This document shows, piece after piece, positions 1 to 62,142 of a stretch of 64,000 nt of DNA; the stretch's first letter is position 1; each line of letters begins with the position of its first letter. The notes beneath the pieces were generated by a model. It searched no databases, was not told where the DNA came from, and was given only the letters and a program-made list of their open reading frames with translations. A program made the translations under genes and the position numbers. The DNA is from Labia minor (lineage: Eukaryota; Arthropoda; Insecta; Dermaptera; Spongiphoridae): positions 44,529,155 to 44,593,154 of the forward strand of contig OY720347.1 of NCBI GenBank assembly GCA_963082975.1, given 5' to 3'.

Positions 1-90
1 TATGAGAAAAATCTATGAAAAATTAATTAATCTGAAATAATTGAAATGCAATATACGCCAGGGCAATAGCGATACGATACAATTATTATT

Positions 91-196
91 AGTAGTACCT
101 GGTTCACCGAGCCGCCGCTCAGTCTTTAAAAAAAATTATTCCTTATTATCGGGTTTGTCTGCTAATATTAATACCTGGTTCTCCGAGCCACCGTTC
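91..196. repeat. Dispersed repeat P, copy 1 (paired TACCTGG/GAGC-hairpin motifs)
   Basis: Two copies of a motif of the form TACCTGGTTC.CCGAGC....GCTC lie about 75 bp apart, joined by a TTATTATCGGGTTTG-like spacer. The same two-motif arrangement with a similar spacer recurs at 4612-4722. Single copies are seen near 1494 and 17292. The GAGC/GCTC arms are kept while loop bases change, so a small stem-loop is likely. The class of the element is not known; a transposon terminus is my guess. Confidence 0.5.
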
Positions 197-349
197 AAAT
201 AATTTAAAAGAACATAAAATAATCATATATACTTACATCTTAAACGTTTGTATTAATGCACTGAAAGACAGAAAAGTATGGCCTGTTGATATAAAATAAT
301 ATATATTTTCGTAATTTGATTTATTTATATTTATAATATTTTGTATTTA

Positions 350-405
350 AGGAAGCGCTGGCTGACGTAGTTGCTGACGTCATATAATTTAAATTAAGAA
401 AAAAC
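350..405 (-). repeat. Fragment of repeat E (CRE-containing part)
   Basis: The sequence TGACGTCA (375-382), a degenerate TGACGTAG 12 bp before it and the following AT stretch match the middle of repeat E in reverse orientation (compare 52980-53035). Only this core remains; both termini are missing. Confidence 0.45.
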
Positions 406-752: not shown

Positions 753-1033
753 TAAATGTGGTTGCTGCGGCCAAGAACTTTCGAGATAGATAAAATAACA
801 TATACAATAATAATATATATATAATTAATTTACTGATTAATTTAACATATATTTTAAATAAGAACACAAAAAGAAATGAATGTTTTATGTAATATACTGA
901 TTGAAACAAAATGGATGAAAACCTTTTACTACTCTTAACCAAATACTATGTACCACTCGGGGGGGGGGGGGGGTACAGGGGGCGGAGCCCCCGTCTAGGT
1001 GTGGAGAGCGCCGAAGGCGCTCGGAGCAGCTAG
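753..1033 (+). mobile_element. Helitron 3' end with captured LINE tail (copy 1)
   Basis: The left part (from 753) is the extreme 3' end of LINE A (GGCCAAGAACTTTCGAG). It runs into a ~240-bp AT-rich tail shared with 61905-62142, 55001-55235 and 35074-35320. The end holds two GC-rich hairpins, GGGGGCggaGCCCCC and GAGCGCCgaaGGCGCTC, then CTAG (1030-1033) followed by T. A GC hairpin shortly before CTRR, inserted before a T, is the established Helitron 3' signature. The 5' end was not found, so this copy is truncated. A run of about 16 G (959-973) is peculiar to it. Confidence 0.7.
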
Positions 1034-2555
1034 TATATATATATAATTTTAAATTAGTTTAATTAATTAAAATATTTAAGTATCTTTTTCAATTGAAAGA
1101 ATAATAATATTTAATTTTGTATGAAAATAAATAAAATTTATAAATAATAGGAAGTCGCTAAGCTTCTATGAAAATAAATGGTGTTTTATTTAATGTTTAC
1201 CTCATCCTAATTATCAATTATATTTACATTTTAAATTTAGTTAATACTTTAATTTATTAAATATCTGATTATAATAATCCTATTCATAAAAATACAAAAG
1301 GAGTTAATTAACTTTCATTTATTGAAAATCGCTTAAAAAGTAAAAAGAAAAACAAAATTTCAATTAAAATAATTGTAAATCATTTATCTAATTAATTAAT
1401 CTAATATATCAAAGTATATTTATGTTAAAGTGTACAATAGTATGTGTCTAGTAGATTTTAAAAATCTTAAAAAATGGAGAGATAATTATTTCCTAGTACC
1501 TGGTTCATCCTGCACCCGATCATTATATAAAAATCACTGGTATCTTACAAACTGAGTATAAATTGTTTTGAGAATATTGCATTCTGTCTTGGAATATTAA
1601 TAAATTGGCTGGTCCAAATAATATAAAATATTGTCCATTCAACTATTTTATATCGTAATTATCTCTATTTTTACATAGTTTAGAGATCATCAATCAAATT
1701 ATATTTTATGAAAAAAACAGAATTAGTTTTGTATATAGCTTTTAATAAAAATTTATGTAAAGCTTCGCGTTCATCTAATGCCAATTTCGGTTAAGTTAAC
1801 CTGGGCATACATGACCGATAATTAATATAATATTATTTTAGTAATATATTTTTTGATTTCTAATAAACAAATATTTAAATTGTTTAATTAATTCTAAAAC
1901 TTATCAATTTAATCAATTCAATATAATTATTCAATTATATTTATTAAATATTCTTCTCTATCTCTATATATACAATTTTTGATAGTATAATAAGATTAGA
2001 TAGATAATGAAATTTACAGATTAATTTAATATTATATAGATATATTCAGATTATAAATTTTATAAATCTATAATAAATATAATCTAAATAGAAATTACAC
2101 ATATATTTTCAATATAGTATAGACTAATTAAAAAGCTTCAACTACTTTTTTAAACAAAAAAAAAAAAATATTTCTGTGTAGTCAAGCTCATGCATTTATC
2201 TGTAAATGTAGACATGTATAAAAATGTTTTAAAGATATTTTTAGAATATCATCATCATAATAGTAAATAAATAAACAAAAATATACATATTTATAAAACT
2301 TATATTAGATATTCAAAAGGTAAATGAAATATTATAATTTGGGTGGTAATGTCTGAAAAATATAAGTATATTTTTAATGAATATTGTGATAAAAACACTT
2401 CAATAATTATGTAATTCCAACCACCCTCACTAGAAAATACAATTTGTTTATAATACCAAAAGTATAAAAAACTCTTAAAGAATATTAATTTCAAAGTAAA
2501 TATGAGATTATTTGCTCATCATTGAGAGAATTTAAAACTATATCAATGATAGTTG
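1034..2555. other. AT-rich intergenic DNA, no gene seen
   Basis: Low-complexity AT sequence with stops in all frames. It contains one isolated P motif (about 1494-1525) and a Helitron-like 5' end at 1971. I see no splice-supported coding signal. Confidence 0.6.
1971..2010 (+). mobile_element. Possible Helitron 5' terminus, family R copy 1
   Basis: The block TCTCTATATATACAATTTTT and a following 'agtataataagattagatag' match 6186-6222 and 10901-10945. A TC start preceded by A fits a Helitron 5' end. No matching 3' end was found, so it is probably an orphan fragment. Confidence 0.35.
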
Positions 2556-2559
2556 TTTG

Positions 2560-3400
2560 TATCAGGTGTGGCCACACTTGGTGATATCTAGAGCTATATT
2601 GAAAAATCGAAAATGTTTAAAAATTACTTTTTTTTGGGGAGGGGGGGGGGATTTCGTAGTCATAGAAGGAAAAATTAAAATACCTAATTATATTAATAAT
2701 AAGTGGTATGAACCGAAAGCAATAATTCTGCTGTTGCTATTGTAATAAAGTAGACAGAGTTGGGATAGATCGAATACATTTTACAACAAAGTTTTTGCAG
2801 AAATAACTAAATTTTAAATTTCCTTTAAATAATTATTTGTAAATAAATATGTGTCATGACGTAGCTTTTTTCCAGTTTAATACGAGGGTGGGGTGAAAAG
2901 TTTAAGGCCTGACCAAGAAAAACGATGTTTTTAAATTTTTTTTTTGCTTTATTTTTCAACATAATCTCCATCAACACTGATACATTTCTCATAACGGTGT
3001 TCTAATTTAGTTAATTAATTAATTTAATTTAAGTCTCATCAACAGTTATGAATGGACGCAAAAATTCGTTTGGATTACGCCTACAGCGCCAAATTGTCGG
3101 TAGAAATATTTTTTCGAAGCAGTTTTTGGTCTACGCGGCACCCACCTTGCACACAGCTTTCCATGTTCAAATGGTTGTGCAAAATATTTCGCACACGTTC
3201 AGCTGACATCATACAGGTCTCAGCTATCTTGAATATTGAAAAATAAAGAAAAAAAAAAAATTTAAAAACATCGTTTTTCTTGATCAGGCCGGAAACTTTT
3301 CACCTCACCCTCGAATATGTAAATTCTAAATTGTGATAACTTTGAATTTTTTAATTGAGCCACTATAAACTCAAAAAGAGCCACGGTTTAGCCACCGTTG
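2560..3400 (-). mobile_element. Inverted-terminal element Q, copy 1, split by later insertions
   Basis: The left block (GTGGCCACACTTGGTGAT, about 2566) and the right block (about 3340-3398, ending in a GCCACGGTTTAGCCACC-type sequence) are reverse-complement matches to the two ends of the compact copy at 6302-6463. Here they are about 700 bp apart. The extra DNA includes the mariner remnant at 2881-3315. The ends share an imperfect GTGGCCAAACCGTGG / GTGGCCACACTTGGT inverted terminus. Confidence 0.6.
2881..3315 (-). mobile_element. Mariner transposon remnant with long inverted ends
   Basis: About 60-bp inverted ends match closely: left starts CGAGGGTGGGGTGAAAAG, right ends CTTTTCACCTCACCCTCG. 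Both continue into a CATCGTTTTTCTTG/TGATCAGGCC-type block. On the minus strand the interior encodes a mariner-like C-terminus, EHRYEKCISVDGDYVEK then stop (about 3003-2948), and a segment reading KLCARWVPR, as in mariner transposases. The middle of the gene, including the catalytic aspartates, is missing, so this is a non-autonomous relic. Confidence 0.75.
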
Positions 3401-10709: not shown

Positions 10710-10825
10710 TTGTTACGCGGCCAAGAACTTTCGACTACCGTAGAACACAGAGATAGATAGATATAACATTTACAATAATAATATATAATTAATTTACTGA
10801 TTAAATTAAAATATATTAAAAGTAA
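10710..10825 (+). mobile_element. Truncated Helitron/LINE tail (copy 2)
   Basis: CGGCCAAGAACTTTCGA followed by ACAGAGATAGATAGATATAA and an AT-rich stretch matches 755-870 and 61860-61970. It breaks off before the GC hairpins, so the 3' terminus is lost. Confidence 0.6.
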
Positions 10826-13140: not shown

Positions 13141-13281
13141 TATAGGAAGATAGGAGAAAATAGGAGAGGATAGGAGTTGGATGGCAGTAGCTCAGGATAG
13201 GGACACGTTTAGAGAGGTGTGGTTACCGCGGCCAAGAACTTTCGAGATCCGTAGAGCCTCAGAGATAGATAGGTATTCATT
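13141..13281 (+). mobile_element. LINE A, 3' end only
   Basis: The sequence from AGGAGTTGGATGGCAGTAGC through CGGCCAAGAACTTTCGAGAT to CAGAGATAGATAGG matches the 3' end of LINE A elsewhere. No Helitron hairpins follow, so this is an independent, heavily 5'-truncated LINE copy. Confidence 0.65.
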
Positions 13282-20844: not shown

Positions 20845-23190
20845 TATTTATCAGGCCCGTTTTGAGCATAGTCCTCTCCCATTTCTTTCAAAATTTCTCT
20901 TCTTCCCCATTCGTTTCCTACTATCTAATTAATATCATCGTACCATCTTTTGTGTTGTCTTCCTTGACTTCTTTTTCCCTGGATATGCCACCGATGCCAC
21001 CTTTCAGTCACTACCTTTGTCCATCTTGCTATGCGATATCCATTTTAATTTCCTTATTTCTATTATTATGTTTTGTAACTGTGTTTTTTTGTAATATATT
21101 CAATCTTAATTCTATCTTTTATTTTAATATTTAGGATGCTCATTAACATCGTCCTTTGAATCGCCTATAGTTGATTTGTAATTTTTTCAGTAATCGACCA
21201 TGTTTGAGCTCGGTCTACACATTTTTTAAAAATTTTTATTTTGGAAATTAGGTAGATATTTTTATTTTTAAAAATGAATGAATGAGTGACCAAAATTTGT
21301 CCATCCCAAGTTGATTCTTATGAATTATTTGAAACATGAATTCTCTATTTGATATGTTAGCTTCCAATATGATGTTCGACTGTAATTTATTTGAAACTAG
21401 CTGCTTCGAGCGCCTTCGGCGCTCTCCACACCTAGACGGGGCTCCGCCCCCTGTACTCCCCCGAGTGTCCCTATTTTGAGCTATAACCATCTAACTCCTA
21501 CCCTGTCCCATCTCTCTCACGTTCCTTCCTACATTGTCCGCCCTGTTCACAATTGGTCTTCCAAACGGACGTTTTCCAATCGAACTCCCCACCAATATAT
21601 TTTTCCTCTCCCATTCTAGCCATGTGCCCTGCCGATCCCAGCCTTCTCGCTTTTATAACCCTAACTATATCTAGAGATGCATAGAGGTCATGCAATTCCT
21701 TGTTATGCAGTCTCCGCCATTCCCCGGTGTCCTCATCTTTCTTTGGCCCATAAATGCTGGGAAGAATCCTATTCTCAAATACTCTGAATCTATTCTCATC
21801 TCCCAGGGTTATAGACCATGCCTCCCACCCATATAATACAAATAATAATTTAATAATTTTGATCCCCTTTGATAATAATTTCCAGATTGCAACCTCGATT
21901 TAAATTCTTTGCAAATATTATTCTCTCTGATACTAATTATTTTGTCTTATCACTATTAATTTCAAACCCCATCAATTTTCCTGCCTCGATTAATTTTTTT
22001 ATGCTACTTTAAATGTTATTAATTTATTTAAAAAAAAATCAAAGTAAACAAAATAAAAATAAAATATAAAATTAGCATAACACTAAACTACTATAAAAAT
22101 AATATTAAAAAATATATTATATATTAAAATCTTACGTGAAAATCCAATTATGAGATCAAATTTTCTTAATTAAAATAATTTACTCACATAATCTTAAAAA
22201 TTAATAGTATTAAATTATAGCCGTAATGTGAATGTTTTCAAAGTTTAAAAGGCCAATAAGATCAATTGAGATATTGTAAATATCAATAGATATATAAAAA
22301 GATTTTTATCTGCACATTGCTCAGAATTTAAATTACCGCCAAATTATCGCCACCAGCGCCTCTATGATCTAGTATGGTAACTAAACTATTTTTAATTAAT
22401 TATTCTTTATAATTTTTTTAAAATTTTTCTAATTAAAAAATCGAAAATCGGGCTTCGAGGTCTGGTGGCCAGCCCCTTTGTGCTTCCGTGTAAAAAATTC
22501 CATGTCCCTGCGTGCGATAGATTTGGCTGGAGAGCTCGGTCAGACAGACAGACACATTACACTTGCTTTTATTATTATAGATAGATAGATAAATGCTAAT
22601 TTTTTATAATTAATTTCTAGCCCAATCGCTCTACTTTTAATGTTAATATCCATTATCATTTCTTTCAAATATTCTTTTGGAGATCCTATTAAAACAAGAT
22701 CATCGGCGAATAAAATTGTTTAAGTATTTTCCATCTATTTTGGCTCCTTTATTAGCCCAAATTAGATTTCTGAACATGTTTTCGAAGACACAGTTCAAAT
22801 ACATAGTGTCAATGCCTTTTTATAGTCCAGAAATGCAAAAAATATATCTATTTGGTATTCAATATTTTTCTCTATTAATTGATTGATAACTTGTAGGTGA
22901 TCGTTTGTAGAAAATCCAGATTTAAAGCCGGCTTGTTCTATTGGTTGGTTAAATTTCATTATATTCCTTAATCGATTTCCTAAAATCTTAATGAATATTT
23001 TTCGCAAGTAAGAAGATAGCGTAATTGGTCTATAATTGTTGATATCATTTCGTTCGCATTTTTTAAACATAACTATAATATTAGATTGTTTCTATTGGAT
23101 TGGAATTATTTTATTATATTATTAAATATTAAACTAACTGGTTTTTTAATTAGTTTTTGGACAAATTTTAAATAAATGTGATTCATTCAT
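20845..23190 (-). pseudogene. RTE-type LINE copy (ORF2 fragment), interrupted by a Helitron
   Basis: Two minus-strand blocks form one reverse transcriptase copy. The 23190-22583 block reads NDINNYRPITLSSYLRKIF, EQAGFKSGFSTNDHLQ, FFAFLDYKKA (RT motif A) and, after a frameshift, a FADD-like box with SRAIGLEIN. The 21396-20845 block gives RRINLGW-like, AQTWSITEKITNQL, GKRSQGRQHKRWYDDI and GEDYAQNGPD, as at the C-terminus of RTE/BovB-like proteins. Across the 21397-22581 Helitron the frame continues without a break (GLEINYKKLAFIYL then FQINYSRTSYW). Several stops and frameshifts make it inactive. The endonuclease domain is absent (5' truncation). Confidence 0.8.
21397..22581 (-). mobile_element. 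Complete non-autonomous Helitron carrying LINE A fragment, 1185 bp
   Basis: Reading the minus strand, it starts TCTATAATAATAAAAGCAAG after host A (complement of 22582), followed by a GTCTGTCTGTCTG run. It ends in GGGGGC(GGA)GCCCC-type and GAGCGCCgaaGGCGCTC hairpins and CTAG, followed by host T. Inside, LINE A coding sequence (LHNKELHDLYASLDIVRVIK, GHMARMGEEKY) lies in the sense direction and runs almost directly into the 3' hairpins; the ~200-bp tail of sister copies is deleted. No Rep/helicase gene is present. It sits precisely within the RTE copy at 20845-23190, which provides an empty-site frame. Confidence 0.85.
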
Positions 23191-24438: not shown

Positions 24439-24476
24439 TTAAATGGAAAAGTATTTAAGAATTAATTCACTAATTT

Positions 24477-25931
24477 AAAAAAAAATTTTAAATCTTATAA
24501 TAATAACAATAATAATAATAATCTTATCTATAACTGCGGTGTGCTTCCAGAGGAATGGCTGAAATCAACATTTGTTACTATCCCAAAGAAACAATACCCT
24601 AAGAATTGCAGTGACTATCGCCTCATCAGTCTTATGAGCCACATGTTAAAGACCTTTCTTCGAATAATACACGCCCGCATCCGATTAAAATGTGAGTTAG
24701 ACTTAGATGACTCGCAGTTTGGATTCAGAAACGCCTTCGGTACAAGAGAAGCATTATTTGGCTTCAATGTTTTGCTTCAAAAATGTCGTGACCAACACAA
24801 AAATGTATTTGCATGTTTTGTTGACTACGAAAAAGCCTTTGACAGAATAAAACACACTAGACTGATTGAACTTCTGTGCGATGCTGGAGTGGACGAAAAA
24901 GATATCAGGATTATAAAAAATCTGTACTGGAGGCAATATGCCGTAATCAGAGTAGGAAAATCCACAACACCGGGAATTGAGATCCAGAGAGGAGTCCGTC
25001 AAGGATGCATTCTCTCTCCCCTTTTATTTAATCTCTATGCTGACAGAATTTTTAAGGAGGCCTTGGAAGAACTGGATATGGGGGTGAAAGTAAATGGCGT
25101 ACCAATTAGTACAATTAAATATGCCGACGACACTGTGATCCTGTCTGAAAACATTGAAGACCTTCAACTACTTCTAAATAAAATTTCTCAAATTGGAATT
25201 AAAGCGGGCTTAAACATCAATATAGCCAAAACAAAATTTATGGTCTTTAGCCGCCAGCCACATGGAAACGCCTCCCTCCACCTCGATAACAAACAAGTTG
25301 AACGAGTAAGATCTTTTAAATATCTTGGTTGTATCATAAATGACCAGCTAGACCCGGATATCGAAATTAAGTCCAGAATTGAGGCTGCGAGGTCCACCTT
25401 CAATAAAATGAGATCCTTCTTCTGTGATGACAACCTAAATCTTAAATTACGACAGAGAATGGCCAAATGCTATGTTTGGTCCATTCTCTTATATGGTGTG
25501 GAAGCATGGACACTCAAGGTCAGTACGATGAATCGCCTGGAGGCTTTTGAGATGTGGATCCTCAGGCGAATGCTGCGAATTCCCTGGGTCGAGAGAGTTA
25601 CCAACAGGGATGTCTTGAGGAGAGCAAACACACAGCGAGAACTCCTCAACACTGTCAAATGCCGGAAAATCTCTTACCTCGGCCACATCTTGAGAGGTAA
25701 TAAATATCAACTCCTTCAATTAATCCTCAAAGGGAAAATTGAGGGTCGACGTGGACCCGGGAGAAGACGCCAATCCTGGTTAGGGAATATCAGGGAATGG
25801 ACCGGCATAAGGAGCGTGGGAGAGCTGTTCCGCACGGCGGAAAATAGAGACGTTTTCGCCAGAGTGATCGCCGACGTCAGGGAGACCGGACAAGGCACTT
25901 GAAGAAGAAGAAAAAAAAATTTTAAATCTTA
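24477..25931 (+). mobile_element. 5'-truncated RTE LINE insertion with 21-bp target site duplication
   Basis: The 21-bp sequences at 24477-24497 and 25911-25931 (nine A then TTTTAAATCTTA) are identical and flank 24498-25910. The insert starts with TAATAATAAC repeats, encodes an open reverse transcriptase frame, and ends GAAGAAGAAG directly before the right duplication. A short simple tail and a perfect duplication show target-primed reverse transcription, probably recent. Confidence 0.9.
24541..25902 (+). CDS. RTE-type reverse transcriptase, C-terminal 453 codons of LINE ORF2, N-terminally truncated
   Basis: This is the only long intact coding frame in the window. It encodes the RT domain and C-terminal region of a non-LTR retrotransposon protein, which copies LINE RNA into DNA at a nicked target. 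Visible RT motifs: PKKQYPKNCSDYRLISL (about 15-31), FGFRNAFGTREALFGF (60-75), FVDYEKAFDRIKH (motif A, 93-105), RGVRQGCILSPLLFNLYADR (motif B, 150-169), IKYADDTVIL (motif C, catalytic YADD about 194-197) and FKYLGCIIND. The C-terminus has ILLYGVEAW, LRRMLRIPW, YLGHILRG and a basic GRRGPGRRRQSW segment, as in RTE-clade LINEs. The apurinic-type endonuclease domain that should precede the RT is missing. The first codon shown is GTG and the frame is open upstream, so there is no true start. The stop is TGA at 25900. The absence of stops and frameshifts, unlike every other LINE copy here, indicates a young insertion. It cannot be autonomous. Confidence 0.9.
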   Translation: MLPEEWLKSTFVTIPKKQYPKNCSDYRLISLMSHMLKTFLRIIHARIRLKCELDLDDSQFGFRNAFGTREALFGFNVLLQKCRDQHKNVFACFVDYEKAFDRIKHTRLIELLCDAGVDEKDIRIIKNLYWRQYAVIRVGKSTTPGIEIQRGVRQGCILSPLLFNLYADRIFKEALEELDMGVKVNGVPISTIKYADDTVILSENIEDLQLLLNKISQIGIKAGLNINIAKTKFMVFSRQPHGNASLHLDNKQVERVRSFKYLGCIINDQLDPDIEIKSRIEAARSTFNKMRSFFCDDNLNLKLRQRMAKCYVWSILLYGVEAWTLKVSTMNRLEAFEMWILRRMLRIPWVERVTNRDVLRRANTQRELLNTVKCRKISYLGHILRGNKYQLLQLILKGKIEGRRGPGRRRQSWLGNIREWTGIRSVGELFRTAENRDVFARVIADVRETGQGT

Positions 25932-35073: not shown

Positions 35074-35404
35074 CTAGATGCTCAGAGCGCTTTCGGCGAT
35101 CTTCACACCTAGATGGGGGCTCCGCCCCCTGTACCCCCGAGTGGTATATAGTATTTGGTTGAAAGTAGTAAAAGGTTTTAATTCATTTTGTTTCAATCAG
35201 TATATTACATAAATCATTCAATTCTTTTTGTGTTGTTATTTAAAATATATTTTAATTTAATCAGTAAATTAATTATATATTATTATTATTGTATATGGTA
35301 TATATATGTATGTGGCTCAAAGATACTCGAAAGTTCTTGGCCGCAACAACCACATTTCTCCAAGTGTCCCTATCCTGAGCCCTTGTCCCATCTCTCTTAC
35401 GTAT
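35074..35404 (-). mobile_element. Helitron 3' end with captured LINE A tail (copy 3)
   Basis: On the minus strand it ends in GGGGGCggaGCCCCC, a mutated GAGCGCC/GGCGCTC hairpin, and CTAG (35077-35074) before host T. Upstream is the shared AT-rich tail, then the LINE A 3' block (GGCCAAGAACTTTCGAG at about 35325-35341) and ~60 bp of LINE coding sequence. No 5' TC terminus was found. Confidence 0.7.
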
Positions 35405-35409
35405 GGCAA

Positions 35410-36140
35410 GTCTAGTTATAACTATCTATCTCTGTCGCTCAATGGTACTCAAAAGTTCTTGGCCGCAACAACCACATTTCTACAAGTGTCCCTATCCTGA
35501 GCCACATCCACCCAACTCCTACCCTATCCCATCTCTCTTACGTCTCTATATATACGCATCCAAGCGGACGTTTTCCAATCGGCCTCCCCAACAATATCTT
35601 TTTCCTCTCCCATTCTAACCACGTGCCCTGCCTTTCGCAGCCTTTTCGCTTTTATAATCCTAACTATTTCTGGAGATGCATAGAGGTTATGAAATTCCTC
35701 GTTATGCAGTGTCCTCATCTTTTTTTGGTCCATAAATGAATGCTGGGAAGAATCCTATTCTATAAATACTCTGAATCTACTCTCATCTTCCAGGGTCATA
35801 CCTTATACCATACCTTACACCAATATAATACAACAGGCAAAATAATTGTTTGTTATATATTTTAATTTTTATCCCCTTTGATAATAATTTTGATGATAAC
35901 AGGCGTTTCCCGATTGTAACCTCGATTTAAATTCTCAAATATTATTATCCTTCGTGTTTACATTCAATTTTTTTTACATTTTCAAATTCTACATTTTGTA
36001 AGTTAAGACTATGTGTGTTAATACTATTCCTCTCTATTACTAAATACTTTGTCTTAGGAATATTCATTTCTGGCCCCGCCTCTTTTCCTGCTTCGATTAA
36101 TTTTTCTACGCTATCTAAAATAATTAATATCTCATTAACT
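35410..36140 (-). pseudogene. LINE A copy, head-to-tail with the preceding Helitron
   Basis: A second LINE A 3' end, with its CTATCTATC tail, starts at about 35418. Minus-strand reading includes MDQKKMRTLHNEEFHNLYAS, PEIVRIIKAKRLRKAGHVVR and, further upstream, blocks shared with 28250-28520 (STSINSEKTKYLV-type region) until about 36140. So the same ~80-bp LINE end occurs twice in a row here. Confidence 0.65.
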
Positions 36141-44294: not shown

Positions 44295-45105
44295 AAATAG
44301 AATTAAATCATATTCGTCAAGATAAATAAATAATGTATTGGTTGTGTTCCAATTATTTAATTTTATTAAGTGAACTGGTGAAGTATTATTTCAATGTTCC
44401 TGTTATTAAAGAGTTCATTTGAAATAAAAAGAAATGCAGGAGGCCCGTGTCGAGAGTAAATAAACGAACTCTTGAGAGTTAAAGCATTCAACGTCTGCAT
44501 AGTTCTGAACCACCTTCTGACCAAAATACTTCACGAAACATAAATCTTCATATTGCACAAACAAGTTGAATTCAAGGCTAATGAAATTCAAATTAGTAAC
44601 GAATTATGTTGGATTGAAGAATGATAATAAAATAAAAATATAATTATCTATAAATAATATCCATCCACAATTTACATTTACACATTTACAATTATTTATT
44701 TATTTTAAATAGTGTTATGGTGATTAATTTCCCATACTGTTTCTAGTCACACCTAGAAGAGAATCCAGATGGGGATGCAGGTTTTTTTTGTAAATGTTTG
44801 AGGATAACTTTCTTGTTTTCATTTCTGTTGTTTTCTCGTTACTATCTCTCTCTCTCTCTTTTGTTGTTCTTTTTGTATTGGAGTTTTTGATGTATTTTTT
44901 CATTTATTTATTTATTCAATTATTAATTTTTTTTTGTGTAATTTGTTTTTTTTCCTTTGTAATTAATTACACCTGAATTGTAAATTATTATTTATATTTT
45001 TTTCTATTTTTCAATTCTCTTTAAATCTTTTTATATATTTATTTCTATTTTTTCTACTATTATTTTCTTTATTTACATTAAATATTTCATAAATATTATA
45101 ATTTT
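44295..45105. other. AT-rich intergenic DNA
   Basis: No gene recognised. A TCTCTCTCTC run lies near 44845. Confidence 0.45.
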
Positions 45106-45254
45106 TTTTACTTTCCCGCATACTTCGTATAATTACTTTCCCGCATACTTCGTATAAGGGAAGTATTGGAATCGTCAAAAATTTCGACTTCGAGATTTCG
45201 ATAGATCTTGACGTTTTAGACCTCCCTGAGTCGGAAAATACCATTTTTCGAATT

Positions 45255-45439
45255 ATGTCTGTGTGTGTGTGTATGTATGTATGTATGTATGTATGTATGT
45301 ATGTATGTATGTATGTATGTATGTATGTATGTATGTATGTATGTATGTATGTATGTATGTATGTATGTATGTATGTATGTATGTATGTATGTATGTATGT
45401 ATGTATGTATGTATGTATGTATGTATGTATGTATGTATG

Positions 45440-45470
<31 letters not shown>
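45255..45470. repeat. (ATGT)n microsatellite, about 200 bp
   Basis: A short TGTG stretch passes into about 50 near-perfect ATGT units. Open frames in all three phases on both strands here are artefacts of the repeat. It occupies the position where elements D and E carry their microsatellites. Confidence 0.95.
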
Positions 45471-45604
45471 TGTCTGTAAGCAAATTTACTCAAAAACTAA
45501 TCAAGCTAGGACTTCGAAATTTGGTACACCGATATTATTCACAGTTTGTAGATTTCTATCAAAATTTCGTCAAAATCGGTTAACCGGAAGTGGTACTTTA
45601 CCTA

Positions 45605-46790
45605 CACTGGTTGCGTTTACCTTTCAAGTAAAGTACCAGTTTGCTTCGAGATATTTGCTTCATATTTTGTATATAGATTTAAAAATATGAAAAAAAGTAA
45701 CATGTGCAGCATCGTACACGTGGCGGAAGTGAAACTTCTTACAATCTAGAGAATAAGATAAATTTTAGTTGAGAGTGTGAGTGAGAGAGAAATAGAGAAA
45801 AATTATGTCGAATCATACTATTTCAATTGTAATGTTCACATGTGGAAGTGTGAACGTGACAAACATAACTTACTTATTCTTAATTGTAATGGACACATGT
45901 GGGAGCTTGACATTATAAGCCTTTCTGGGAAATTGCAAAATGTGTTTATTTTTTTATATAAATAATGATCATGCAAATTACACTAAAAATTAAAAAATTA
46001 TTAGCTATAATAAACTATTATTGGCTATAAATTAATTATAATTAATTAAATTAATAAAAATAATTTAAAGATACAACTCGTTGAGAAATGAACTTATAAT
46101 TAACATTTCCTTTAAAACTGTTTAAAACCCCAGAGTGGACGCTGACAATTTGGGTTTTTCCTGGTAAGACTGTCCCCCCCCCTGGTTTTTCCCAATAACA
46201 AAGTGAAAGAAAATTCCCTTATGTTGCCTCCCCTTCCGACCCCCTAAGAGGGGTTATTTTAAAGGAACAATCGGAAAATAATTTTAAATGAATGAATAAA
46301 TGAAAATTCAAATTTTATATATAGTTTTTTATATATGTTTATTTATTCACAAAAAATTAATTAAATTGTAATTTAAATTCTTATAGTTTTATTAAATAAA
46401 TCATTTTTAGTTATAATTTTATATAAGCATTTTTTAATTGAACCTATTCAATCTTGTCATTCCCTAATCAGCATACGCGGTTTCAATAACCCTTTTAATT
46501 ATTCTAAATTCAATCTTTAATTAAATCTAATTTAACACACAACAATTCCGTCTCATTATTGTAATACAAAGTTAGAAATATTAAGTTAATATAATTAATA
46601 TTATTTATTTATTAATACCAATTAATAATATTAATTACTTATAAATAATTCATAATAATAATAAATTGTGATACCAACTTATAGGAATATTAAAATAATA
46701 TAATTATTATTTTACATATATATGAATATAATATAAATATTTTTAATTTTATTTTAAGAATAGATATATATCTAAAAGGCGGTAACTGTG
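45605..46790. other. AT-rich DNA between the two family N ends
   Basis: No gene recognised. A C-rich patch at 46135-46250 (GTCCCCCCCCCTGG, CCTCCCCTTCCGACCCCC) may be a transposon end. Confidence 0.4.
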
Positions 46791-55000: not shown

Positions 55001-57877
55001 CTAGCTGCTCAGAGCGCCTTCGGCGCTCTTCACACCTAGACGGGGGCTCCGCCCCCTGTACCCCCGAGTGGTACATAGTATTTGGTGGTTGAAAGTAGTA
55101 AAAGGTTTTCATCCATTTTGTTTCAATCAGTATATTACATAAAACATTCATTTCTTTTTGTGTTCTTATTTAAAAAATATATTTTAATTTAATCACTATA
55201 TTAATTATATATATTATTATTGTATATGTTATATCTATCTACCTATGTGGCTCAAAGATACTCGAAAGTTCTTAGCCGCAACAACCACATTTCTCCAAGT
55301 GTCCCTATCCTGAGCCCTTGTTCCATCTCTCTTACGTCCCTTCCTACGCGTCATTGGTTTTCCAAGCGGACGTTTTCCAATCGGTCTTCCCACCAATATC
55401 TTTTTCCTCTCCCATTCTAGCCACGTGCCCTGCCTATCGCAGCTTTTTCCCTTTTATAACCCTAACTATTTCTGAAGATGCAGAGAGACCATGCAATTTC
55501 TTGTTATGCAGTCTCCCCCATACCCGGTGACCTCATCTTTCTTTGGCCAATAAATGCAGGGAAGAATCCTATTCTCAAATACTCTGAATCTACTCTCATC
55601 TCCAAGGGTCATAGACCATGCCTCCCACCCATATAATGCAACAGGCAAAATAATCTTTTTATATATTCCCTTTGATAATAATTTTCAAGAGATAAGCCTC
55701 TTTATTGCAAGATAACAGGCGTTTCCCGATTGCAACCCCGATTTAAATTCTTCTCAAATATTATTATCCTTCGTGATTACATTCAATTTTTCTACATATT
55801 CAAATTCTACATTTTGTATCTTAAGATTTTGTATGTTAATACTCTTCCTCTTTGATACTAAATATTTTTTCTTATCACTATTAATTTCAAACCTCCATTA
55901 AATTTTCCTCGCTAACTGTAATTGCAATTGCCGAATCTCCTATTATATTTAAGTCGTCTGGGTAACCTAATATTTTACAATTTATTTCCGCATCTTATTC
56001 TTTCTTTACTACCTTCAAGACAAATTTGAAGATTGAAAATTTGAAAAAGTTTATCCGGATCTATTGAGTCATGCGTATGTTTTACTAAAGTCTACAAATA
56101 ATTAGTGAACAGAAATATTGAATTCGCGGTTTTTTTTCCTAATATCTGTCATAATGAAAATATCTTAATTAATGTTGGTCGATTTGGCCTGAACCCGCAA
56201 TGATATCTCCTAATATTTCCACCGCCTATGGTTCTTAAGTATTTTCTATGTTATTATAGTGAAATAGAGTATAATATTTCTTGATCATTACATTTGCTAG
56301 GGGATTTGAAAATTATTCGTCGCAATATGAAGATTTCGCTTACAGTTTCTGTCATGTCCGACCTCCATCCAACAGTTATTTTCTGTCAAGTTTTTTGATT
56401 CTCTTAATCATGTGATCTATATATTTAATTTTTTTTGATTCATTATAATAAAATTTAAACAAATAAAAATTTTTACTTTGTTAATTTATATAAATTTCAA
56501 TATAAACTGATTGTGAGTGATACGCTTAGCCAATACTCTGAATAATTTGTGTACAAAAATATTGAATGTTCTTAGCGAGATTTGATATAATGTTGTACGA
56601 TTTGTCCTAAATCTGAATTAGAAGAAAATTATAAATTGCCTCCTTTTCCAGCTCAATTCATTTACCCACCCATGTTGCATATGGCATCTAAATTTCTTAA
56701 AACTCCGTTTTTTTAATTTAAAATAGAAGGAGAGAAAGAGTTTTAAATTATATTCGAATAGTCTATATATTCTATATATCAGTATTTTTTTTCTGAATTT
56801 AATAGCAAGTTGATTTTAAAAATTTTCCATTCTTAATGCATATGATTGATTACATGTGTTAAAATTTAAAAAAATTCAAATATTCTAATTTTTATATTTA
56901 TATACAATTTAATATTATTTTTTATTAATATCATATCAAAAAAAAAGAGAATTTATTAAAATTAAAAATAAAAAAAGAAGCCTATTAATAAAAAATTGAA
57001 TGGTGATTTAAATATTTTATTAAATTAATTAAAATGAGACCTTTTAGAATAAATTATTTAATTGAAATGATATTTAAATATAAGAATTTAAAAAAATATT
57101 ATATTCTTTGTTTGGCAATTGTTATTTAATTATGTGCAACATGATTCGACTTGCACAGAGCATCGTTATTTTTTATTAATATCACATAATAAAAATGAAT
57201 CTTTTAAACATAATAAATAAAAAAGACATTTTAATAAATTTAAAAAATATACCCAATTTAAAAATGTCAAAAATTTAAAACAACTTTATATCATCATATT
57301 TTAATTTTTATATAATATATATATATATTTAGTAATTAATAATAGAGTAATTAAATTAAAATAAAAAACAAAGATAATATAATTCAGTCATTTTAATTCA
57401 GGTTAAATAATATTTTTTTTTATTATTCAATGATAAAATTTATATATTATTATATATATATTATAGAAAAGAAGAAATATTCAATTAAATAAAAAATAAT
57501 TTAAGATAAAAATATGATCTAATAAATATTTTAATTAAATTGAGAACTTTTAGAATAAATTATCTAATTGAATTGATATTTGTATATTAGAATTTAAAAT
57601 AAAAAGGGAAATATTATAATAATTCTTCTATTGGGAATCGCTATGATAATTCATTGTTTGAAATGATTCCGCTAGGCCGACAGTGAGCCGCGAGCTGCTC
57701 TTGAATGAACAACACGGAGAATTATATAAACTTTAAAAAATTAATTTCTGCGGTTATTGATAAGATATTAATAAAATGTATAGCCTATGTTACTCTAGAG
57801 GTATATAAGAATATTGTGATGTAATTTCAAAGAAATCGGTTCAGCCAATTCTGAGTCTATAAAATAGTAATTTTCCG

Positions 57878-57956
<79 letters not shown>

Positions 57957-58070
57957 GTGAAAAATTCTAAAGTCACTTTTGGATTCTAGAGGTCATGAAA
58001 CGCGAAGATATGCAAAAATTTTTAAATTCTGAGCAATGTGCAGACAAAAACCTTTTTTTATATATATAGA
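55001..58070 (-). mobile_element. Complete non-autonomous Helitron with LINE A cargo, 3070 bp
   Basis: Reading the minus strand: 5' TCTATATATATAAAAAAAGG after host A, then TGTCTGCACATTGCTCAGAA and a long TCTG microsatellite (57957-57878). About 1.3 kb of AT-rich DNA with an internal ~140-bp direct repeat (57000-57150 vs 57520-57660) follows. LINE A cargo (56270-55235) contains ALYGWEAWSMTLGDESRFRV and FENRILPCIYWPKKDEVTG. The shared tail has GGGGGCggaGCCCCC and GAGCGCCgaaGGCGCTC hairpins, then CTAG (55004-55001) before host T. No Rep/helicase ORF. Confidence 0.85.
57878..57957. repeat. (CAGA)n microsatellite inside the Helitron
   Basis: About 19 perfect units, roughly 115 bp from the Helitron 5' end. 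The sister Helitron at 21397-22581 has three units in a comparable place. Confidence 0.95.
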
Positions 58071-58074
58071 TTAT

Positions 58075-60020
58075 TATTATATTATTTTATTATAGCAACA
58101 TTTCATCATATTCCAAGAAATAAATGCTTTGGTTATTTGTTTTTGCTTTACCACTAAGTCAATTAGTTAATGAAGTAGGCTTCATAATATTATTGTAGTC
58201 CTTAACTTCTCTGAACCTTTATTAAGATTTTTGTAGTGATTAAATCAAGGCACAATTCTGAAGTCGGAGAGGTAAAACAAGACTGGGTCTATGAATATTT
58301 ATCTCGTTTTACTAAATTTTTCAATTTTAAGCAAATGTAGGTAAATATAAATATGTAAGTCTTAATATTAATTTTAAAGAAACGTCGAATAAATTATACT
58401 TACAAAATTTCAATAGAGAAGAAATCATAAATCTTTGAAATAAAGATGATGAAATTTCACTTGTATTTAGCTTCAAGATGGCGGACAAAAAATCCTTCTT
58501 ATTAAACGTTTCACTTATAGCTTAAGAAGACGCTTCATCTGGTGCCGTAGATGACTACAATCGTCCCACAATGTTTTTCGCAAAAGTTTTTGTTTTTGAA
58601 ATATAGAAAACACGTCATATTCATCTGTTTTACCTTAGATGATAAAATTTTCAATTCTTTTAAAAAAAAATATAGGAAAAAGACATCAGAGAATGATTTT
58701 TTCACTTTGAATCTTAATATGTGATTCCTAACTGCTTTTTTTATACGGAAAAAGATAGTCTTAGGTTTAAGGAAGAGGCATAGATTTATAATTCCTTTAT
58801 TAAGCCAAAAATAATTTATTAACAAAAAAGAAAAAATGTGCAATTACTGGTTGACAATGCATCTCTAATGATCAAAAAGTGTCCAGAATCGAAAGTTTCA
58901 CTTTTTAACACTGAAATATTGTCGACTCTTACTTGTGAAACAATGTCACACCAAGCAAAGATAAGAAAAGCAAATCTTCAGGTTCAGACCATTCCACAGC
59001 CTCCCTCCAACCAAGGGTCATAGAATGCTTCCTGCTCTCCGTGCAAAGTGTAGTTACATTACCTAAAAATTCGAAAATTCTAAAACAGTTTATTTAAGAA
59101 ATAAATAGAACTGTCAAACACTGGAGTTTTTCAATTTTTATGATCCAGTAAATCACAATGAGAATAAATTACTTGTCTTCTCAAACAAAACCAACATAAT
59201 ATTGGTGCATAATATAAATAATAACCTATATCAAACAAATCAAGTGAAAAATAAATACGATGTGAACAAATAAAAATCTATTCCACCTTATGAATATTGA
59301 TAACATCTGCTTATAAACTTATCAGTTTTCTCTTTTTATTTTCGTATTCTTAAAAGCTTTCACTAATCTTGATGGTGAGTCAGCCATTACAGTTGACAGA
59401 TATCTCTTTCTTGATTTGATGGCACACAGCATTCCAAAAATATATTAAAACCATATATTGGAGGTATTTTTAATCAATTATCATACACTCGTTCCGTTAC
59501 CCTTATATTTAATTTACTACTAGTGTAGTTTAAGTTATTGTAGATTGTATTATATGCACGGTAAATATAAAAAAATGTGATTTTCGCTATTTAATAATTT
59601 AACATTTAAATAAGCAAATAATTTTTATTTGTTAATTACATATTTGATAATAATTTGACGTTTTGGTTCATTATTATAACATTAATTTTAAAAAATTATA
59701 AAATTTTAATTCAATTTATATTTAGTCATATAGAATAGAATAATTAGGTATAATATGTAAATATATAAGGTATAATCTCGAAAGCAATAATAGTTTGAGA
59801 TATAGGTAAATTATCAAATAATTTCTAAATTAGGAGATCATTTATTCTCAAAATATTGGACTCAAATTTGTTTACTACTTCAATAAATGGAGTTTTTACT
59901 ATATTTAAATGATATGTATAATATTTTCATACTTTTATTAAACAATTTTTAAACTAAAAATATAAATTATAAAACAAGTATATTATCATTATTTAAATAT
60001 ATTTCAACACATTGGCTAAG
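58075..60020. other. AT-rich intergenic DNA with one possible small ORF
   Basis: At 58478 an ATG in the context TTCAAGATGGCGGACAAAAA opens MADKKSFLLNVSLIA then stop. AAGATGGCGGAC also matches the YY1/Pho site that often overlaps start codons. A 102-codon minus-strand frame (58535-58843) and a 61-codon plus frame (58838-59023, including TIPQPPSNQGS) show no known domain. The stretch is less repetitive than its surroundings and might hold an unrecognised gene. Confidence 0.35.
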
Positions 60021-60027
60021 TGTGATA

Positions 60028-62142
60028 TCTTATATATAAAATTCTCGTGTCACAAAACTTTGAAATGATACTCCTCCGTAACGGCTGTACCGATTCTTAT
60101 GAAATTTTTTATGCATATTCAGTAGGTCTCAGGGCATGTCAGACTTCTTTTATTAAACCGCTAATTGGTAAGGTGTGTCCAGGGGGTGCTAATTAATTAA
60201 AAATAGTTTAGTTACCATACTAGATCATAGAGGCGCTGGTGGCGATAATTTGACATTTGTTCAGAATTTAAAAATTATTGTAATATTTCACTTTTTATTT
60301 TAAATTCTAATATTCAAATATCAATTTAATTATATTAAATTATTAAAACTTTGGTGGTTGTTTTTATTTATAACGGCATTTTGTAAATTAAACCACATAT
60401 TGATATTTGCTATTTCTGCAATCGAGACGTTGTGTATATTTTTGTATTTTTTGAATAAATTTACAATAACAAATATCAATATGTGGTTTAATTTATAAAA
60501 TTCCGTTATCAATTCAATTAAATAATTTATTCTAAAAGTTCTCATTTTAATTTATTTAATAAAATATTTAGATTATATATAACTTAATTTTTATTTATTC
60601 TTTCTATATATTGGAATAATTCATCTTTTCTATTTGAAAGTGAGAAAGCTTAAAAAAACAGAATATATTATTTTTAATGTTTTATGAATACAAAAATATT
60701 TTCAAAACGTAAATTAAAATAACTAAATTATATTATTTTTGATTTTGTATCAATTATTATTACAAATATATTTTAAGTGCAAAAATGATTTCTTGGTTAA
60801 TTAAAATATGTTTTTTAGACAAATGATATAAACGAGATGTTTTAAATTTATGTCTTTTTTATATTGAGTATTTTTTTAAAATTAAAATTTGTTTTAAATC
60901 AAAATTATTGTATTCAATTATATTTTTTTATTAATAGGCTTCTTTTTTTATTTTTAATTTTTAATAAATTCTCTTTTTTGATATGATATTAATAAAAAAT
61001 AATATTAAATTATATATAAATTTAAAAATTAGAATATTTGAATTTTTTTCAATTTTAACACATGTAATAAATCATATGCATAACGAATGGAAAATTTTGA
61101 AAATCAACTTGGTATTAAATTCAGAAAAAAATACTGATATATATATAGAATATAATAGACCATTCGAATATAATTTAAAACTATTTCTCTCTTTCTATTT
61201 TAAATTTAAAAAAAACGGTGTGTTAAGAAATTAAGATGGCTGGATAGGTAAATGGGCTGGAAGAGGAGTTAATTTATAATTTTCTTCTAATTCAGATTGA
61301 AATTAATAGTGATAAGAAAAAATATTTAGAACAAAATCTATATACAAAATGTAGAATTTGAATATGTAGAAAAATTGAATGTAATCACGAAGGATAATAA
61401 TATTTGAGAAGAATTTAAATCGAGGTTGTAATCGGGAAACGCCTGTTATCATGCAGTAAAGATGCTTATCTCATCAAAATTATTATCAAAAGGAATCAAA
61501 ATTAAAATATATAAACCTATTATTTTGCCTGTTGTATCATATGGGTGGGACGCATGGTCTATGACCCTGGGAGATGAGAGTAGATTCAGAGTATTCTTTC
61601 CAGCATTTATTGGCCAAAGAAAGATGAGGTCACCGGGGAATGGCGGAGACTGCATATCGAGGAATTGCATGACCTCTATGCATCTTCAGAAATAGTTAGG
61701 GTTATAAAAGCGAAAAAGCTGTGATAGGCAGGGGACGTGGCTAGAATGGGAGAATGCGGAGACCGATTGGAAAACGTCCGCTTGGAAGACCAAGGACGTT
61801 TAGGAAGGGACGTAAGAGAGATAGGACAAGGGCTCAGGATAGGGACACTTGGAGAAATGTGGTTGCTGCGGCCAAGAACTTTCGAGTTCCTTAGAGTCAC
61901 AGAGATAGATAGATATAACATATACAATAATCATATATATAATTAATTTAGTGATTAAATTAAAATGTATTTTAAATAAGAACACAAAAAGAAATGAATG
62001 TTTTATGTAATATACTGATTGAAACAAAATGGATGAAAACCTTTTACTACTCTTAACCAAATACTATGTATCACTTGGGGGGTACAGGGGGCGGAGCCCC
62101 CGTCTAGGTGTGGAGAGCGCCGAAGGCGCTCGGAGCAGCTAG
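60028..62142 (+). mobile_element. Complete non-autonomous Helitron with LINE A cargo, 2115 bp
   Basis: Starts TCTTATATATAAAATTCTCG directly after host A, continues with CTCCTCCGTAACGGCTGTAC and TAGATCATAGAGGCGCTGGT (the latter shared with 21397-22581), and then an AT-rich region homologous to 56610-57090 in reverse. LINE A cargo follows in the sense direction (61295-61905; SYGWDAWSMTLGDESRFRVF). The end is GGGGGCggaGCCCCC, GAGCGCCgaaGGCGCTC and CTAG (62139-62142) before host T. No transposase gene. This and the copies at 21397 and 55001 define the family. Confidence 0.87.

Follow-up and report, generated by a model that had tools for sequence, protein, structure and literature searches.

How does a piece of one transposable element become the regular passenger of another? 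The question is raised by a 64,000-nucleotide stretch of the genome of the dermapteran Labia minor (contig OY720347.1, positions 44,529,155 to 44,593,154 of the forward strand; hereafter the window), which has a GC content of 27% and comes from an assembly of 604 Mb in 71 contigs. Several elements in this window have the ends of Helitrons and carry, close to their 3' end and in sense orientation, the 3' part of a long interspersed nuclear element (LINE) that also occurs outside them. The original prediction read them as a Helitron family that had captured the end of a resident LINE, through insertion of the LINE into a Helitron followed by rolling-circle amplification of the pair. This history is supported by an autonomous partner, a 16-bp target duplication and LINE-free copies of the target, although for "captured" one should read "received by LINE retrotransposition", as the duplication and the LINE-free targets indicate. 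Very probably, retrotransposition placed a single, 5'-truncated LINE in a canonical Helitron, rolling-circle transposition amplified the pair, and trimming and a second 5' end came later.

The elements at 60028-62142 (H below) and 55001-58070 are non-autonomous canonical Helitrons. As predicted, both lie between A and T and show a TC start, an AT-rich spacer, a sense LINE segment, its GATA end, two GC hairpins and a terminal CTAG; the tail, put beforehand at about 200 bp, measures about 230 bp. The same order had been ascribed to a third complete element, 21397-22581, in which the LINE breaks off at ..GGGACACT and continues directly into the CGGGGG.. of the hairpin end, without the GATA end and the 200-bp tail. 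The fusion, which leaves this type without the LINE end and with little of the tail, recurs in loci L022, L031 and L034. Among the DNA compared, no second copy has the 5' end of the 21397 element (TCTATAATAATAAAAGC), so the 5' boundary of this element is unproven. Two of the three predicted 3' fragments reach CTAG and the third does not (Table 1). The resident LINE itself, for which the best 150 of 27,756 first-look candidates were scored, is very common in the genome, carries a reverse transcriptase domain (RVT_1, 2.4e-26 in the free copy L052) and ends in (GATA)n; free copies at 13141, 44001 and 48604 of the window have, as expected, GATA-repeat ends and no Helitron tail. Positions 1272-1891 of H match the free LINEs L052-L054 at 74-76% across the main stretch, and the insert of the 55001 element, with limits set by comparison with a copy on contig C10, matches L052 from position 1481. 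The cargo is the 3' end of the LINE in H, as had been proposed; the longest insert seen, about 1.0 kb, begins in the reverse transcriptase domain.

The mode of entry can be read from the relative on C10 (C10:5014840-5018122), a complete element of 3,283 bp (A/TC..CTAG/T, slashes marking its boundaries) whose LINE, at element positions 2047-3050, is flanked by perfect 16-bp copies of TATAACATATACAATA at 2031-2046 and 3051-3066. A shared word of 16 nt or more occurred in none of 2000 Markov shuffles. LINE similarity sets in directly after the first 16-bp copy (score 84 versus 22.8 ± 3.8 in shuffles, 0/500), and before it does not rise above the shuffles (79/500). The suggestion from an alignment that LINE similarity runs on through the upstream copy was rejected, there being none above chance in the shuffles. 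The inner 1.0-kb segment has the features of a retrotransposon without long terminal repeats (non-LTR), namely membership of a reverse transcriptase family, 5' truncation, a target duplication and its own 3' end at the junction.

Both junctions and the uninterrupted target were counted over the whole genome with up to two mismatches, the reversed patterns serving as controls. The 28-nt 3' junction between LINE and Helitron gave 7,144 matches (reversed control 1), which bears out a repeat family and not a chance arrangement, and the intact 5' LINE junction gave 2,659 (control 0). The LINE-free target with its left flank was found 134 times (control 3), and a LINE-free variant of the tail 231 times (control 0). 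The 134 matches are not LINE junctions of the C10 kind, since their pattern differs from that LINE-bearing element at 7 or more of 26 bases. Among the 38 LINE-free targets with at most one mismatch, 22 recur among the 100 tail matches listed, so that flank, target and tail are continuous at those sites; the other 16 may lie among the 131 remaining tail matches. A search with the predicted LINE-free sequence, in which the best 40 of 584 first-look candidates were scored, listed 41 matches, two of which span the join (81-83%) and the remainder of which cover one side. Two LINE-free loci, L056 and L057, show the Helitron tail with a single copy of the target; L056 ends in CTAG/T, and the end of L057 is decayed. 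By eye, the tail in L056 (C9:1439750-1441250, reverse strand) is immediately preceded, at about 1-1010, by a different, sense-oriented LINE-like coding stretch, and L057 also contains LINE-like relics; this part of the Helitrons, close to their 3' end, may be one in which LINEs gather repeatedly.

The joined unit was copied many times. In the first 25.4 Mb of contig C1, 14 of the 52 perfect 5' junctions are followed on the same strand by a perfect 3' junction, and none has one on the opposite strand; 13 of these 14 pairs are spaced 1,010-1,024 bp, as expected of a LINE block of constant length copied over and over. In a tree of the LINE sequences, all 19 rows labelled Helitron-borne group in a single clade (98/97), which also takes in three mislabelled or cut rows and leaves the other nine free rows outside, and this branching suggests that one insertion was probably amplified. 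At the 38 hairpin ends found (loci L009-L057 and the window), the LINE ends 226-231 bp ahead of CTAG in 26, and 61-66 bp ahead of it, through a shared deletion, in three; in nine no LINE was detected, although three of these nine (window 1033, L034:370 and L034:3874) have LINE ends too short for the search. This breakdown is not a genome fraction, because 20 of the copies were chosen by the query and necessarily carry the LINE/tail junction. In locus L029 (positions 1-350, reverse strand) LINE end and tail are tandemly duplicated, with a unit of about 171 bp.

The ends of the unit are those of canonical Helitrons, described as TC and CTRR (here CTAG), a palindrome of 16-20 nt about 11 nt from the 3' end, and insertion between A and T without duplication (PMC4067079; PMC4778049; these and the papers cited below are used in part). 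They were compared in 20 further H copies, the next best among 40 scored matches to the last 243 bp of H (the best 40 of 1,625 first-look candidates), a sample that is biased towards young, junction-carrying copies. H itself begins A/TCTTATATATAAAATTCTCGTGTC and ends GAGCGCCGAAGGCGCTCGGAGCAGCTAG/T, and in all 20 copies the same CTAG base, then T, closes the element; the variable 3' ends, poly-A tails and target duplications at the hairpin end that would have spoken for a LINE were not seen. The 35-nt TC start of H is present in 18 of the 20 copies (up to six differences allowed); L022 appears to be a head-to-head fusion with a further copy, and L039 is truncated. The right neighbour is T in all 18 complete copies and the left neighbour A in 14, G in three (one of them a tandem join) and T in one, so that the claim that every complete copy sits between A and T describes a rule and not an absolute. 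At two of the 20 loci (L031 and L034) CTAG directly abuts a new TC start, as expected for rolling-circle concatemers. Near-full copies (n=8, the window copy included) are 96-98% identical to one another. The 83-nt hairpin end has a folding energy of -21.2 kcal/mol versus -11.9 in shuffles (z -4.0), and its 17-nt palindrome, 11 nt from the 3' end, lies within the canonical range. For an autonomous copy on contig C4 an empty site is available: the host is a relative of the window's 57.6-kb sequence, and the joined flanks align in an exact A/T join with zero extra or missing bases, which is canonical insertion without target duplication. Taken as a whole, the unit shows neither the surrounding target duplication nor the variable 5' truncation of a non-LTR retrotransposon.

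A partner able to mobilise such elements was looked for through its Rep domain, and Helitron_like_N matches occur at 104 places in the genome. Two of these belong to complete autonomous elements, C5:34911465-34921022 (9,558 bp, with a 2,039-aa frame) and C4:72530932-72539147 (8,216 bp, 1,722-aa frame), which begin A/TCTATATATATAAAAAAAGGTTTTTGTCTG, end in the same palindrome and CTAG/T, and are 99.6% identical over 5,777 bp, the match running 19 bp beyond CTAG. Pfam recognises Helitron_like_N (1.1e-57) and PIF1 (4e-70) in the autonomous protein (condensed translation, 1,666 of 2,039 aa). No endonuclease domain is among the six families found at E ≤ 0.001 in this condensed translation, which include Helitron_like_N, PIF1 and PIF1 2B, and the longest frame past the helicase stop has 65 aa. 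Subterminal inverted repeats of 12-15 bp were likewise not found when the first 80 nt were compared with the last 120 nt, the longest exact inverted match being 10 nt in the C4 copy and 7 nt in the 60028 copy. Membership of the Helentrons was rejected on these two grounds. The 55001 element shares both ends with the C4 copy (first 1225 bp 89%, last 151 bp 96% identical), so for this type the autonomous Rep/helicase partner that had been proposed was found, without endonuclease and with the same ends. The 60028 type has only the 3' end in common with it: its 229-bp tail aligns over 30 LINE-bearing rows, and the last 149 bp match the autonomous element at 94% identity. In the two autonomous loci, nothing resembling the LINE was detected upstream of the 3' end. 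Other Rep loci were also noted. A second Rep/helicase lineage with 1,652-aa frames and equal scores (C9:43365333, C9:45506044, C10:14925745, C1:82181971, C5:81088381 and others) was apparently active recently; the stretch read at C9:43365333, considered as a candidate partner, shows neither this type of hairpin end nor the H-type start, though a related hairpin is present in locus L047. Rep matches with stop codons and equal scores at C5:46740114, 46749931, 46759748, 46765437 and 46771124, spaced 9,817, 9,817, 5,689 and 5,687 bp apart, are probably a tandem Helitron array.

In the history proposed here, a single LINE, already 5'-truncated, would have landed about 230 bp before the 3' end of a canonical Helitron by its own target-primed reverse transcription, to which the flanking 16-bp duplication, the LINE's GATA repeats at its 3' junction and the LINE-free copies of the target all point. 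The Helitron would have stayed mobile because its TC start and terminator (palindrome and CTAG) were kept, with Rep/helicase acting in trans, as the ends common to the autonomous element suggest. Rolling-circle transposition, for which the A/T insertion without duplication, the empty site and the head-to-tail junctions argue, would then have carried the Helitron and its passenger to the thousands of sites that the match counts record. Later deletions trimmed the LINE, as comparison of copies shows. H lacks the stretch 1461-2181 of the 55001 element, and with it the 5' LINE junction, and its 5' end is different as well, which fits the numbers of 3' junctions (7,144), 5' junctions (2,659) and H-type starts (2,140 matches to the first 31 nt, reversed control 0). 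Further deletions in H copies run from 992 to 1783 (L025, L035), from 277 to 1792 (L027) and from 918 to 1852 (L028). To judge from the copies compared, at least two different 5' ends occur in the family, those of the 60028 and 55001 types; the LINE-bearing 3' part would have joined a second Helitron 5' end to give the common 60028 type, a product that the comparison displays and whose mechanism of joining is hypothetical.

Other explanations have to be set against this history. Were the whole unit a LINE subfamily with a GC-hairpin 3' untranslated region, moved by reverse transcription, the sense LINE end close to the 3' end and the 5'-truncated copies with a constant 3' end (753-1033, L039) would be as expected; the TC start common to 18 of 20 copies, the Rep/helicase partner with 55001-type ends, the constant 5' end seen together with an exact A/T empty site, and three truncated pieces without clear target duplication (longest shared words 5-7 nt, background uncomputed) leave this idea practically no credit. 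It is also highly improbable that the Helitron itself captured the LINE piece. Read-through of the 3' end and filler DNA in break repair are published models of Helitron capture (PMC4778049; PMC6544945), but a 5'-truncated LINE framed by perfect 16-bp repeats, with its own tail repeats lying precisely at the 3' junction, together with the uninterrupted target elsewhere and the 2,659 matches to the 5' junction side, is what retrotransposition leaves behind. Separate LINE entries for the 60028, 55001 and 21397 types, suggested by their different 5' ends and LINE extents and by the other LINE beside the same tail in L056, are very unlikely in view of the identical 3' junction of the 60028 and 55001 types and the single clade that holds all three.

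A less remote alternative, though still an unlikely one, accepts the retrotransposition and holds that recombination between the 16-bp repeats later removed the LINE from most LINE-free copies, the empty site being secondary. The product of such recombination would look identical to an empty target, and a weakly resolved tree of the tails places LINE-free beside LINE-bearing rows; against it, the LINE-free copies that were read or matched carry a tail variant, AATAAAATATA.AATT, one indel away from the LINE-bearing tails, which suggests an older, separate lineage. The reading of a single received LINE, amplified with its Helitron, has several observations against it. The tail tree joins L056 and L057 to two old LINE-bearing copies (80/76, not significant) and does not place them outside the LINE-bearing rows, so that secondary loss could account for some LINE-free copies; the tree is too weak to order gain and loss of the LINE. 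Of the 134 LINE-free matches one, L056, was read. Weaker controls for the duplication are less favourable than the shuffles: a shared word of 16 occurred in 12 of 2000 random pieces of the window, which holds several tail copies, and the score of the 16-bp repeat is reached by 46 of 300 windows taken from the element itself, repeats included. No clear target duplication was found in the three free LINEs L052-L054, perhaps through badly placed 5' ends, so that duplication by this LINE is seen only inside the Helitron. The Helitron label needs three changes in the LINE tree, and none of 200 bootstrap trees (0%) needs only one; this is because three rows labelled free sit inside the Helitron-borne clade, namely a split hit of a Helitron copy, a row cut at the end of its locus and a relic beside a Helitron end. 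When zero-mismatch rows alone are counted, just 17 of the 75 perfect H-type 5' ends in the first 25.3 Mb of C1 are followed within 6 kb by a perfect junction (against five on the opposite strand). The left flank is not A in four of the 18 complete copies, one of them a tandem join, and no autonomous partner for the H-type start (TCTTATATATAAAATTC) was found in the Rep loci read, most of the 104 matches not having been read to their ends.

The terminator may have a history of its own. The autonomous element (L044/L045) holds a second, inner Helitron start 333 bp ahead of CTAG, and in its tail the identity is 94-96% with LINE-bearing elements versus 72% with the LINE-free L056 and L057, which suggests from sequence comparison that 3' ends have been exchanged between Helitrons. 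A more far-reaching and rather doubtful proposal is that the LINE-bearing 3' part is a shared 3'-end module, passed among Helitrons and now standing behind at least two 5' ends, the autonomous element having taken over, through read-through, the terminator of a nested mini-element in place of its own. In that case terminators would spread by hijacking, and the passenger LINE would ride on the winning terminator.

Canonical Helitrons such as Helraiser/Helibat1 share with the present elements their ends, palindrome, A/T insertion and Rep/helicase partner; the difference is that the cargo here arrived by LINE retrotransposition into the element, and that matches to the LINE-bearing junctions far exceed those to the LINE-free target. 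Helitrons that capture gene fragments (maize, bats, silkworm, insect Hel1; PMC6544945) likewise amplify internal cargo, and are explained by end bypass or filler DNA, whereas a target duplication and an empty site are found here. The Fusarium oxysporum chimeras, with a hAT or Hornet inside a Helitron (PMC5148889), resemble this arrangement most closely; their authors found no evidence of transposition, while the present chimera clearly transposed many times, with thousands of junction matches. DINE-1 elements and Helentrons (PMC4067079) also have a 3' hairpin, a microsatellite (here GTCT, close to the 5' end of the 55001 type) and very high copy number, and Helentrons carrying tandem repeats have been described (PMC7492417); the elements studied here differ in their A/T target and TC/CTAG ends, and no endonuclease domain was found. 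In the open-licence literature searched, seen in part, no report was found that describes a LINE sitting inside a Helitron and multiplied together with it, PMC5148889 being the nearest; in a word search, the main text of the silkworm Helitron paper PMC3789558 lacks the whole words LINE, retrotransposon, nested, SINE and tandem. The locus thus tells apart two routes of cargo gain, in that the Helitron would have captured nothing and another transposon delivered the cargo, and a single genome provides the two junctions, the duplication, the uninterrupted target and the Rep/helicase partner. This is a simple route by which mobile DNA may pick up cargo: a LINE lands in a Helitron, and the Helitron copies the pair thousands of times. 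Repeat annotation could label thousands of these Helitrons as LINE fragments and so skew both counts, and the paired junctions may serve as a clock, a single LINE insertion being datable through thousands of copies.

Table 1. Helitron-related features of the window (positions in the 64,000-nt stretch)
Feature	Position	Strand	Basis or remark
Non-autonomous Helitron, H type, complete, 2115 bp	60028..62142	+	A/TC..CTAG/T
H-type 5' module, ~229 bp, begins TCTTATATATAAAATTCTCGTGTC	60028..60256	+	BLAST blocks over H 1-229 in sampled copies
AT-rich Helitron spacer, in part common to 55001-58070	60257..61298	+	BLAST, H versus 55001 element
LINE 3' coding segment, KNFRVP-stop then (GATA)n; 5' part lost by internal deletion	61299..61913	+	
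Helitron 3' tail to CTAG, 16-bp LINE target copy at its start	61914..62142	+	229 bp
First GC hairpin GGGGGCGGAGCCCCC	62087..62101	+	Fold
Terminal palindrome GAGCGCCGAAGGCGCTC, 17 nt, 11 nt before the end	62115..62131	+	Fold
Non-autonomous Helitron, 55001 type, complete, 3070 bp, autonomous-type 5' and 3' ends	55001..58070	-	
LINE insert, 1,006 bp, begins in reverse transcriptase domain; upstream target copy decayed	55234..56239	-	
Helitron 3' tail with 3' copy of LINE target, hairpins, CTAG	55001..55233	-	
Deletion derivative: LINE segment joined straight to hairpin end; 5' boundary unconfirmed	21397..22581	-	
3' fragment: LINE end, tail, CTAG	753..1033	+	
3' fragment: LINE end, tail, CTAG; adjoins further LINE relic ~35415-36000	35074..35404	-	
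Fragment: LINE end and ~64 bp of tail, without CTAG	10710..10825	+	

Within the AT-rich spacer of the 60028 element, a 49-bp inverted repeat (92%) is formed by window positions 60366-60414 and 60465-60513. Elsewhere in the window, another LINE with a 478-aa open frame and a full reverse transcriptase domain (RVT_1, 2.7e-40) lies at 24466-25902 (+), and a long tetranucleotide microsatellite at 45011-45690 gives rise, as its translations indicate, to spurious open frames on both strands.

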